Positions 36,113 through 39,873 of a DNA stretch of 64,000 bases are shown piece after piece. Source of the DNA: Brevinematales bacterium (GTDB taxonomy: Bacteria; Spirochaetota; Brevinematia; Brevinematales; GWF1-51-8); the NCBI GenBank assembly GCA_020059465.1, contig JAGVBZ010000025.1:128913-192912 (forward strand), in the 5' to 3' direction. The notes beneath the pieces are model-generated. The model was not told the origin of the DNA and did not search any database. It worked only from the letters and a program-made list of their open reading frames with translations. Each line of letters opens with the position of its first letter. Position 1 is the stretch's first letter. A program made the position numbers and the translations under genes.

Positions 36113-38023
36113 ATGAGACTGCGTGTAATCATCGTACTGGCAACGGTATTCGCATCGGCGGCGTTCGCCGTAACCTCGAAATATATTTCCGATTATAAAT
36201 TCAACGATGTCGCGAGCTATCAGATATCCAACGTCTGCCTGCTCCAGAACGGCGGATTGGAACTCGCGCATGCATACCAGTCGGTCTATAAAACCGAACG
36301 TCTGATCTGGAGTCTCGCGCAGTTCGGGAACGGGTATCTCGTCGGGATCGGAGATTCCGCGCGTCTGATTACAGTACAGGGCGGGGTTGTAAAAGAAGTG
36401 TACTCGTCGCCCGATTCGCTGTTCTTCAGCGATATTGCGGTTATTTCTACCAATATCTATCTCACTTCCATCCCCTACGCCGAAGTCGTCGTGCTCGACC
36501 ATAAATTTCAGCAGAAAAAGAAAATTCCCCTGAAGAATAATTATGCATGGAAAATAATACCGGCTGCTCAGGGATTTTATATCCTCGCGGGCGATCCCGC
36601 AATGGTGTACTACTTCGAGAACCAGCAGGAAAAATTTTCGGTCACGCTGCCCTACGAGAATAATATCATATATGGAAAGATGATTAACGATACCCTGTAC
36701 TTCTGCGGCGAAAAAGCCCTGTACCGTCTCGACGGGCAAAAAGCTGTCGCGATGATTTCGTTCGATAACGCGGTCACCGGGTTCGATTTTTTCGACGGGT
36801 ATATCTATATTACCACATCCAGCAAAGACTTATATATGGAATACAACGCCCAGAAGGCCCAGCAGAATAAGGGCCAGAATTCCGACCAGAATACGTCAAG
36901 CGCGCTGTACCGGATTCATCCCAACGGCGCGTTCCAGAAAGTGTTCGAGAAAAGCGGTCTCCGTTTTATCGCGGTATCCCACCTGAAGAATTCCCTGATT
37001 ATCGGCACCGACGAGCGGGGCGGGTATTTCGAGATCAGTCCCGATTATACCACAGTGAAATTCACGTCGCTCGGTAAGGGCAAGTTCCTGAAATTCCTCG
37101 AGGGGAGCGACGGCCTCTACGCGGTGCTGCTTTTGCCGTCGGAGATCGTAAAAATTGAGGACAGTTACGCTAAAGAGGGATACTATATTTCTGATATTTT
37201 CGACGCCGGCAATGTCTCCGAATGGGGCACGCCGATTATCGAAAAAAATCTCCTGCCCGGTACGGACATGTCGTACTTTTTCCGTTCCGGCGCGGTCGAT
37301 GAAACCGATTACTGGGGTAACTGGATGCCCCTGAAGGGAAAGATTTCCTGCGCCCCCGCGCGTTATATCCAGTATAAAGTCATCCTGAAGTCCGACGGTA
37401 AATTTACCCCCTTCCTGAACGAGATGAATATCCCGTATGTAGAATGGAACTTACCGCCCGTGTTTAAAAGTATTTCTTATAAGTATTCCGACCTGATCGT
37501 CTCGGTCAAATGGGAAGCGTCCGACCCGAATAACGACGATCTGGTTTACGACGTCTATATCGCGAGGGGCGAGAACGGCTGGGTCAAGATGAACAACTCT
37601 CCCCTGAAAAGCTCGTCGTTCGATCTGGAGTATAAGGCGTTCCCCGACGGGATCTACCGCGCGAAGGTGGTCGCGAGCGATATAAAATCCAACCCGATGT
37701 CCGGCGGAAAGACGAATATCATTATCGGGGAGAATTTCTATATCGACAGCGCCCCGCCCGTAGTGCAGATTACCGATGTGAAAAAGGACGGGTTCTATAC
37801 TATATTTACGGTCACCGCAAAAGACGCTCTTCTGCCGATATTCAGGGCGAAGTATTCCGTGAACGGCGGCGAATGGATAGGCATACTTCCCGACGACGGT
37901 ATCCTCGATTCCAAGACCGAAACATTCACCGTAAAGCTGATCATCGCGCCGCCGGCGTTCGTGCAGTTCTATGCCGGGGACGTGATCGGGAATACCTCAT
38001 CCGACGGGATGCTGATAAAATAG
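36113..38023 (+). CDS. Exported propeller-like protein with C-terminal fibronectin-III-like part
   Basis: 636 residues. Cleavable signal peptide (IIVLATVFASAAFA). Residues about 50-370 consist of short beta repeats with spacing like a WD/NHL beta-propeller (IWSLAQFGNGYLVGIGDSARL, DIAVISTNIYLTSIP, LYRLDGQKAVAM, LIIGTDERGGYFEIS). Residues about 440-545 resemble a fibronectin-III or cadherin-like module (VSVKWEASDPNNDDLVYDVYI), and the end has a further Ig-like stretch. Probably secreted or surface-exposed; function unknown. TAGGAGG precedes the ATG. Confidence 0.7.
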   Translation: MRLRVIIVLATVFASAAFAVTSKYISDYKFNDVASYQISNVCLLQNGGLELAHAYQSVYKTERLIWSLAQFGNGYLVGIGDSARLITVQGGVVKEVYSSPDSLFFSDIAVISTNIYLTSIPYAEVVVLDHKFQQKKKIPLKNNYAWKIIPAAQGFYILAGDPAMVYYFENQQEKFSVTLPYENNIIYGKMINDTLYFCGEKALYRLDGQKAVAMISFDNAVTGFDFFDGYIYITTSSKDLYMEYNAQKAQQNKGQNSDQNTSSALYRIHPNGAFQKVFEKSGLRFIAVSHLKNSLIIGTDERGGYFEISPDYTTVKFTSLGKGKFLKFLEGSDGLYAVLLLPSEIVKIEDSYAKEGYYISDIFDAGNVSEWGTPIIEKNLLPGTDMSYFFRSGAVDETDYWGNWMPLKGKISCAPARYIQYKVILKSDGKFTPFLNEMNIPYVEWNLPPVFKSISYKYSDLIVSVKWEASDPNNDDLVYDVYIARGENGWVKMNNSPLKSSSFDLEYKAFPDGIYRAKVVASDIKSNPMSGGKTNIIIGENFYIDSAPPVVQITDVKKDGFYTIFTVTAKDALLPIFRAKYSVNGGEWIGILPDDGILDSKTETFTVKLIIAPPAFVQFYAGDVIGNTSSDGMLIK

Positions 38024-38090: not shown

Positions 38091-39584
38091 ATGACCACGG
38101 CTGAAACGGAGTTCCTTTCGAGAACCATTAAACGCGACGAGATTGACAATTATCTGATCGGGGGAAAGGATTTTATAGACGACGCCCTGATCGAACGGCA
38201 GATCGCGGCAGGCGCGAAGCCTCAAAAATCGCGTGTACGGGAGATTATCTCGAAAGCTATGTCTATCGAACGTCTCGACCCCGAAGAGACCGCCGCCCTT
38301 CTGAATGTCGAGGACGAGGAGTTATGGGAAGAGATGGCTCGCGCGGCGGGCGATATCAAACGAAAGGTTTACGATAACCGTATCGTCACCTTCGCGCCGC
38401 TCTACTGCAGCAATCATTGCGTCAACAACTGCCTGTACTGCGGATTCCGAACGGATAACACCCGCGAGCGCCGCCGGAAACTGACTCTCGGCGAAGTACG
38501 CAAAGAAGCCGAATCGCTCTGCAAGATCGGGCATAAGCGCCTCATCATGGTGTACGGCGAGCATCCCAGCTCCAGCGCGGACTATATCGCCGATACGATC
38601 AAGGCAGTTTACGATGTGAAGGTGCCCGCGCGTAACGGTTTCGCGCAAATACGACGCGCCAATATCAACGCCGCCCCGATGTCGGTCGAAGACCTGAAGA
38701 AACTGTGGAAAGCGGGTATCGGGACATATCAGGTCTTTCAGGAAACCTATCATCATAAACGTTATTCCGAGCTTCACCCGTCCGGCATAAAAGCGGACTA
38801 TAAATGGAGGCTTTACGCACTGCACCGCGCGCTTGACGCGGGTATCGACGACGTCGCTATCGGCGCGTTATTCGGCCTGTACGACTGGCGTTTCGAGGTC
38901 ATGGGTATGGTCTATCACGCGATCGACCTCGAGAACCGTTTCGGCATCGGCCCGCACACCATCTCGTTCCCGCGCCTCAATCCGGCGGAGGGCACGGATA
39001 TCTGCGATAATTCTCCGTACATGGTTTCGGACGACGATTTCCGTAAGCTTGTGATCGTGCTCCGGCTGTCGATCCCCTATTCGGGAATGATTATCACCGC
39101 GAGGGAATCCGCCGAAATGCGCCGGAAGATCATCCCGCTCGGATGCACCCAGACGGACGCGTCCACACGTATCGGGATCGGTGCATACAGCGAAGCGGCA
39201 GAGGATCAGGAGTCCGACCGCCAACAGTTCATGCTCGGCGACACCCGCAGTCTGGACGAGGTCGTCCGCGAATTCACCCGGATGGGGCTGATCACATCGT
39301 TCTGCACCGCGGGATACCGCTGCGGGCGCACCGGCGATAAGATCATGAAACTCCTGAAATCGGGCGTCGAAGGAAAATTCTGCAAATTGAACGCGGTACT
39401 CACATACAAAGAATGGATAGACGATTTCGCGAGCAAGGAAACCCGTGCGGCGGCGGAAGAAATTATACAGAAGGAAATAGAGCAGATCAAGAACGATCCG
39501 TTTTACCGGAATAAAAAATTGCTCTCGACTTTTGACGATTACCTCGGCAGGATAACGAATGGCGAACGGGATCTCTATATCTGA
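38091..39584 (+). CDS. hydG: HydG-type radical SAM tyrosine lyase (variant auxiliary cluster motif)
   Basis: 497 residues, full HydG length. The radical SAM motif is CVNNCLYC (Cys110, Cys114, Cys117), then HKRLIMVYGEHPSSS, RRANINAAPMSVEDL, GTYQVFQETYHHKRYSELHP and GIGPHTISFPRL, all as in HydG, which cleaves tyrosine and makes the CO/cyanide ligands of the [FeFe]-hydrogenase cluster. The C-terminal auxiliary-cluster motif CX2CX22C is altered: Cys405 and Cys431 are present, but the middle position 408 is Gly, with a Cys at 411. hydE, hydF and a hydrogenase are not in the window. Overlaps the next gene by 26 bases. Confidence 0.88.
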   Translation: MTTAETEFLSRTIKRDEIDNYLIGGKDFIDDALIERQIAAGAKPQKSRVREIISKAMSIERLDPEETAALLNVEDEELWEEMARAAGDIKRKVYDNRIVTFAPLYCSNHCVNNCLYCGFRTDNTRERRRKLTLGEVRKEAESLCKIGHKRLIMVYGEHPSSSADYIADTIKAVYDVKVPARNGFAQIRRANINAAPMSVEDLKKLWKAGIGTYQVFQETYHHKRYSELHPSGIKADYKWRLYALHRALDAGIDDVAIGALFGLYDWRFEVMGMVYHAIDLENRFGIGPHTISFPRLNPAEGTDICDNSPYMVSDDDFRKLVIVLRLSIPYSGMIITARESAEMRRKIIPLGCTQTDASTRIGIGAYSEAAEDQESDRQQFMLGDTRSLDEVVREFTRMGLITSFCTAGYRCGRTGDKIMKLLKSGVEGKFCKLNAVLTYKEWIDDFASKETRAAAEEIIQKEIEQIKNDPFYRNKKLLSTFDDYLGRITNGERDLYI

Positions 39585-39873
39585 CCGGATCAGGGGTATC
39601 CTGACGTCGGGGGGCGGCCTGAAAGAAGTATTGGACGATACATGGACGCTCGTGGAACGGGAATACGGCATCCGGGTACAGTTCTGCCGGATCTTCGGGA
39701 AACGGTGGTCGTATTTTTCCGGGCCGGATGACGGGGATGCGGTGGTCGCGTCGCAGCGGATCGAACTGCTGCCGGGCTGGGGAATTATTTCTGACGGACA
39801 GTTCGACCCCCGGGAGGATTGGGAAAAGTTTCTTAAAGAGGTTGCCTCTTGCCTGCGGAATCATTTAAAATGA
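39559..39873 (+). CDS. Small unknown protein translationally coupled to hydG
   Basis: 104 residues starting inside the last codons of hydG (26-base overlap), with CAGGA upstream of the ATG. It contains two Cys (positions about 43 and 98), Trp-rich pieces (KRWSYFSGPDDGD, LLPGWGIISDGQFDPREDW) and no signal peptide. I do not recognise the family. Overlap implies co-translation and hints at a shared role with the HydG-like enzyme. Confidence 0.6.
   Translation: MANGISISDRIRGILTSGGGLKEVLDDTWTLVEREYGIRVQFCRIFGKRWSYFSGPDDGDAVVASQRIELLPGWGIISDGQFDPREDWEKFLKEVASCLRNHLK

Follow-up and report, generated by a model that had tools for sequence, protein, structure and literature searches.

A widespread branch of HydG in which an auxiliary-cluster cysteine has shifted and the substrate pocket is remodelled

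The hydG gene in a 64,000-nucleotide stretch of a Brevinematales bacterium (the window) belongs to a genuine, widespread and functional branch of HydG in which one cysteine of the auxiliary cluster has shifted and the substrate pocket has been remodelled. By the textbook account, HydG makes the CO and CN- found in [FeFe]-hydrogenases. Two of its features have been regarded as invariable, namely the CX2CX22C motif of its cluster and the pocket that binds the tyrosine phenolate, and neither is universal. A clade found across many phyla of anaerobes, often as the sole HydG, departs on both, and its S. wolfei member works in E. coli. The single clade marked by Asp356, the pocket change and the coupling to a small partner gene, orf104, are new here, although they may have been described earlier outside the open-access literature.

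The shifted cluster cysteine

The features of the gene, all on the forward strand, are as follows.

38091..39584 (+): hydG, CX5CX19C variant, 497 aa (translation, profile, structure model)
38418..38441 (+): radical SAM CX3CX2C, Cys110-114-117 (translation; invariant in the clade alignment)
38670..38672 (+): codon for Ala194, where most canonical HydG have Ile; adjoins Asn193 in the substrate site
38916..38918 (+): codon for His276, counterpart of the histidine of the dangler iron (alignment; invariant in 241 HydGs)
39099..39101 (+): Ala337 codon, in place of the phenolate-binding Thr (ThiH T299) (alignment)
39156..39158 (+): Asp356 codon, in place of the phenolate-binding Ser (ThiH S318); clade marker
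39303..39305 (+): codon for Cys405, the first cysteine of the cluster; invariant
39312..39314 (+): codon for Gly408, where canonical HydG has its middle cysteine
39321..39323 (+): codon for Cys411, putative ligand in place of the missing cysteine
39381..39383 (+): codon for Cys431, the last cysteine of the cluster; invariant

The original prediction described a HydG homologue with its radical SAM cysteines and overall HydG pattern intact. The translation agrees on Cys110, Cys114 and Cys117, and the pattern is confirmed by the HydG equivalog TIGR03955 (NCBIfam), which the protein matched at 465.5 bits versus a cut-off of 312.15. With the ThiH profile TIGR02351 it scored 275 bits, below the cut-off of 380. 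Its best solved relatives were HydG from T. italicus and C. hydrogenoformans (4WCX and 4RTB). The AlphaFold model (mean pLDDT, 91.6) has the HydG fold including the C-terminal domain and fitted 4WCX (TM, 0.89/0.97; rmsd, 1.6) better than it fitted ThiH. The cluster loop, residues 407 to 413, was the sole part with a pLDDT of <50. The counterpart of His276 in 4WCX has chain index 266, and we take it to be the histidine ligand of the dangler iron.

In the translation, the C-terminal motif reads C405-T-A-G408-Y-R-C411-GRTG...C431, so that the CX2CX22C of characterised HydG is absent and CX5CX19C stands there instead. These four numbered residues align with C394, C397, M400 and C420 of 4WCX (chain index). 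Since Gly408 falls on the middle cysteine of 4WCX, that cysteine is absent here and another stands three positions further on, just as had been predicted. This replacement marks a divergent HydG lineage as opposed to a canonical HydG. The solved enzymes 4WCX and 4RTB share with the window protein the full-length fold, CX3CX2C, the first and last cluster cysteines, the dangler histidine and the amino/carboxyl end of the substrate site, but they have the middle cysteine at 408 and a Thr/Ser/Ser phenolate crown.

A scan of 84,980 genomes returned 551 relatives of the window HydG, of which the best 80 were kept. Among these best 80, 79 carried CTAGYRCGRTG or CTSGYRCGRTG and the remaining one CTADYRCGRTG, so a clade with Gly408 and a cysteine three residues on does exist. 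One locus among the relatives (L020) is frame-broken. The CX5CX19C spacing recurs in Spirochaetota, Bacillota, Bacteroidota, Omnitrophota, Thermotogota and further phyla, also in complete genomes. A sequencing error at the glycine codon, or close homologues with a canonical cysteine, had been named as ways in which the prediction could fail; neither was borne out, as the relatives share the motif. We found no evidence in support of an error or an isolated pseudogene, and the identical residues in relatives of many phyla and in complete genomes already refute that explanation, to which we give practically no credence.

In the open-access literature, this spacing has been named once before, as C-x(5)-C-x(19)-C in one sentence on C. 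autoethanogenum CLAU_RS03260 (PMC9431212), which the window protein resembles in this respect. That report gives the spacing only and mentions neither pocket nor partner gene for CLAU_RS03260. Annotation searches requiring CX2CX22C would miss HydG in many H2-metabolising bacteria.

The middle ligand across 241 HydGs

We compared 241 HydGs, with relatives picked partly by similarity to the window protein. Cys405 and Cys431 were invariant (241/241), while Cys408 was present in 126 and absent in 115. Position 408 in those 115 was occupied by Gly (104) or Asp (11), and Cys411 was found in 104 of them. The other forms had, instead of Cys408 or Cys411, a cysteine at 416 (L267 and L270), 420 (L202 and L210) or 425 (L214 and L219). 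The last two, from genomes G251 and G341, read CTAGYRIG with Cys425 as the only one left, and their hydG adjoins a HydE gene. HydA and HydF were still present in the checked genomes of these odd forms (L214, L219, L202, L210 and others). Three HydGs (L188, L264 and L285) had both Cys408 and a second loop cysteine.

A rule that every HydG without Cys408 keeps another loop cysteine held for 101/101 in our first set but for 110/115 in the wider one. The five exceptions (L309, L310, L312, L313 and L321) keep no cluster-region cysteines besides Cys405 and Cys431; all five adjoin orf104, and two of the five sit between hydA and hydE. Because these proteins are encoded in hydrogenase-type operons or next to orf104, a third cysteine is not strictly required, which counts against our preferred explanation. 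We also considered Cys352 as an alternative ligand, which was common (65/115 without Cys408) but not general.

A third loop cysteine that wanders among 411, 416, 420 and 425, and that five HydGs lack altogether (two of the five encoded between hydA and hydE), could mean that the clade has a degenerate second cluster, with CO and CN- released without a stable three-cysteine cluster or with a non-cysteine third ligand. However, the first and last cysteines never vary, a third loop cysteine is nearly always kept, and the second cluster is essential in characterised HydG (PMC9431212). We therefore regard degeneracy as unlikely. For the window protein, rearrangement of the cluster via Cys411, which had been proposed at the outset, is still the best reading, and the conservation of Cys405 and Cys431 along with the frequency of Cys411 make the latter a likely [4Fe-4S] ligand. 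The original proposal is supported in part, namely as to the rearrangement, with the ligand role read from these conservation patterns; the pocket change and orf104, described below, lie beyond it. These natural variants could help to establish which ligands are needed by the cluster that builds the synthon.

All 115 HydGs without Cys408 had Asp356, and all 116 Ser356 HydGs had Cys408; Asp356 and Cys408 occurred together in ten. On a tree built without the 356 and 408 columns (a quick tree with SH-aLRT only), Asp356 arose once (65-row clade; SH-aLRT, 99), and the state of Cys408 changed at least five times, all within the Asp356 clade. Taken together, all 115 HydGs without Cys408 fall in one Asp356-marked clade, a new finding here. 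The perfect covariation with loss of Cys408 raised the idea that Asp356 itself binds iron in the second cluster, to which we give little weight as this residue aligns with ThiH Ser318, a residue of the tyrosine pocket. As a separate observation, position 245 (window positions 38823-38825) changes from Asp to His in 110/115 HydGs without Cys408 versus 5/126 with it.

The substrate pocket

In ThiH, a crown of Thr299, Ser318 and Ser321 binds the tyrosine phenolate; a published study calls this site strictly conserved across both ThiH and HydG (PMC9046217). We carried the roles of the pocket residues over from ThiH via the alignment, in which HydG position 337 corresponds to Thr299 and 356 to Ser318. 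The window protein has Ala337, Asp356, Thr359 and Arg344 and thus departs from the Thr/Ser/Ser/Arg phenolate site of that study. Thr337, Ser356, Ser359 and Arg344 were each found in 116/116 Ser356 HydGs. In the Asp356 clade, Thr337 was found in 0/125 and Asp356 in 125/125, position 359 was Ser or Thr, and Arg344 was kept in 110/125. R338, E157 and H276 were invariant in all 241 HydGs, and N193 was present in 125/125 of the Asp356 clade.

With the backbone-binding residues kept and the crown changed, we conclude that the side-chain end of the pocket is rebuilt and the amino-acid backbone end retained. As Ala337 and Asp356 replace two of the three phenolate-binding hydroxyls, phenol recognition is changed, and perhaps the substrate too. 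The ThiH of the window's own genome retains the Thr/Ser/Ser crown. ThiH (2-iminoacetate synthase; PDB 7PD1) resembles the window protein in its radical SAM barrel and amino/carboxyl-binding residues, but it has no C-terminal cluster segment, its residue at position 193 is Glu, and its crown is intact.

Our preferred explanation, which we consider quite probable, is that the clade would have arisen once via the rebuilt side-chain end of the pocket (Thr337 to Ala and Ser356 to Asp), and that within it the middle ligand of the second cluster would have become movable. In the window HydG, Cys405, Cys411 and Cys431 would most likely hold the [4Fe-4S] cluster, and His276 would be placed for the dangler iron.

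As for the substrate, we lean slightly toward tyrosine, which on sequence grounds may still be used, bound as a neutral phenol to Asp356. The rest of our explanation is also compatible with a less probable alternative, that the clade draws CO and CN- from an amino acid other than tyrosine, e.g., tryptophan. The indole NH would bond Asp356 in a pocket widened by Ile194 to Ala, Leu215 to Val and Thr337 to Ala, and maturation would still work, dehydroglycine being the common product. All three crown positions are changed or relaxed in the clade versus 116/116 conserved elsewhere, with the amino/carboxyl holders kept, and the genome has its own ThiH with an intact crown, all of which favor a switch. 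However, Asp can also accept a bond from a neutral phenol, Arg344 is retained in most of the clade, some pocket-region changes go to larger residues (V293F), and we found no open-access paper reporting another substrate. We consider the switch rather unlikely, and tyrosine remains our preferred substrate. With this clade one could learn whether CO and CN- come from tyrosine alone and what a partner gene that had been overlooked contributes.

Hydrogenase maturation and the partner gene orf104

The original prediction had also suggested that the protein acts only as a ThiH-like tyrosine lyase, making dehydroglycine for a non-hydrogenase purpose, and in the window hydG indeed has no neighboring hyd gene save orf104. 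The genome (3.19 Mb; 96.6% complete), however, encodes two large hydrogenase proteins (595 and 608 aa) plus a weaker, sensor-like third, HydE (330 bits), HydF (560 bits) and a separate ThiH, and the window HydG is its only HydG. Thus hydE, hydF and hydA, proposed as genes to look for elsewhere in the genome, were all found. A second HydE-like radical SAM protein (G000:C36:52823-53752, L221; 443-aa frame) scored 245.6 bits versus a cut-off of 254.6 and also occurs in the close relative G002.

In Caldanaerobacter subterraneus the variant is the only HydG, and the subspecies tengcongensis of this bacterium has an active NADH-dependent [FeFe]-hydrogenase (PMC4694547). In 46/50 genomes with the variant, no second HydG exceeded the cut-off; HydA did so in 44 of these 50, HydE in 48 and HydF in 41. 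The complete genome of Athalassotoga saccharophila (G022) has one each of HydA, HydE, HydF and HydG. Typical operons in relatives are hydA-hydF-hydG-orf104-hydE and hydA-hydG-orf104-hydE-hydF.

To our knowledge, E. coli has no HydE, HydF or HydG. Losey et al. (2017) describe an S. wolfei maturation fragment of HydE, a 348-bp ORF without domains and HydG, which with hydF in E. coli yielded recombinant Hyd1ABC with 94.5 U/mg of H2-dependent NAD+ reduction (PMC5626996). The same plasmid also matured S. aciditrophicus HydAB (PMC7311640). Four of the primers of PMC5626996 occur exactly and properly placed in L316, on a 2,936,195-base contig of genome G359, which we assigned to S. wolfei via these matches. 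The gene order there is hydG-orf104-hydE, and the HydG (SWOL_RS05190) has the sequence CTADYRCGRTGGCFM...C, a CX5CX19C motif in which residue 408 is Asp; it also has Ala337 and Asp356, and falls in the Asp356 clade on our tree. The motif goes unmentioned in the passages of PMC5626996 consulted here.

Because the S. wolfei genes gave active hydrogenase in a host without HydE, HydF and HydG, we conclude that a CX5CX19C HydG is competent. This protein is a close but not identical test case. It shares the spacing, Ala337, Asp356, a neighboring orf104 and the clade with the window protein, but differs in Asp408, an extra Cys417, Ser at 359 and the adjacent hydE. By analogy with this clade member, the one for which maturation is published, the window protein itself would almost certainly function as a HydG. 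A sole HydG alongside HydA, HydE and HydF, the operons of relatives, the separate ThiH with its intact crown and the S. wolfei maturation all contradict the lyase-only proposal, which we now consider highly improbable.

The partner gene directly overlaps hydG.

39559..39873 (+): orf104, small partner gene, 104 aa, overlaps the hydG end by 26 bases

It had no family match in Pfam or NCBIfam. Its model (pLDDT, 81) gave weak fold matches, mostly to GAF-containing proteins (best E, 6e-3), and its N-terminal conservation is partly due to the overlap with hydG. With no conserved cysteine, it is not a likely cysteine-ligand donor. In the first set, in which many stretches were short, an orf104 homologue lay 3' of hydG in 49/101 loci without Cys408 versus 0/119 others; canonical hydG loci have no adjoining orf104. 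In a Bacillota sample, 27/398 genomes had orf104, and 16/17 extracted places directly adjoined an Asp356-clade hydG, two of the 16 with Cys408. A stricter rule, that orf104 occurs only by HydGs without Cys408, therefore fails for L308 and L311, which have Cys408 with Asp356. In genome G520, a gene resembling orf104 is located apart from hydG. We also rejected orf104 as S. oneidensis HydX, encoded between hydG and hydE, due to size (104 aa versus 23.9 kDa; PMC4694547).

Taken together, orf104, an undescribed and weakly GAF-like small protein, is coupled to the Asp356 clade, which is new here. The 348-bp ORF on the S. wolfei maturation fragment belongs to its family and was co-expressed with HydG throughout that work. 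We believe that orf104 is probably an accessory of maturation. A broader proposal, in which the whole clade would take CO and CN- from a non-tyrosine amino acid (tryptophan being the best guess), with auxiliary-cluster ligands that are relocated or only in part cysteines and a dedicated GAF-like helper, is unlikely, slightly more so than the substrate switch by itself. Upstream of hydG, positions 36113-38023 (+) encode a 636-aa protein with no match in Pfam or NCBIfam, which among the fetched loci occurs only in the two closest relatives (L001 and L002).
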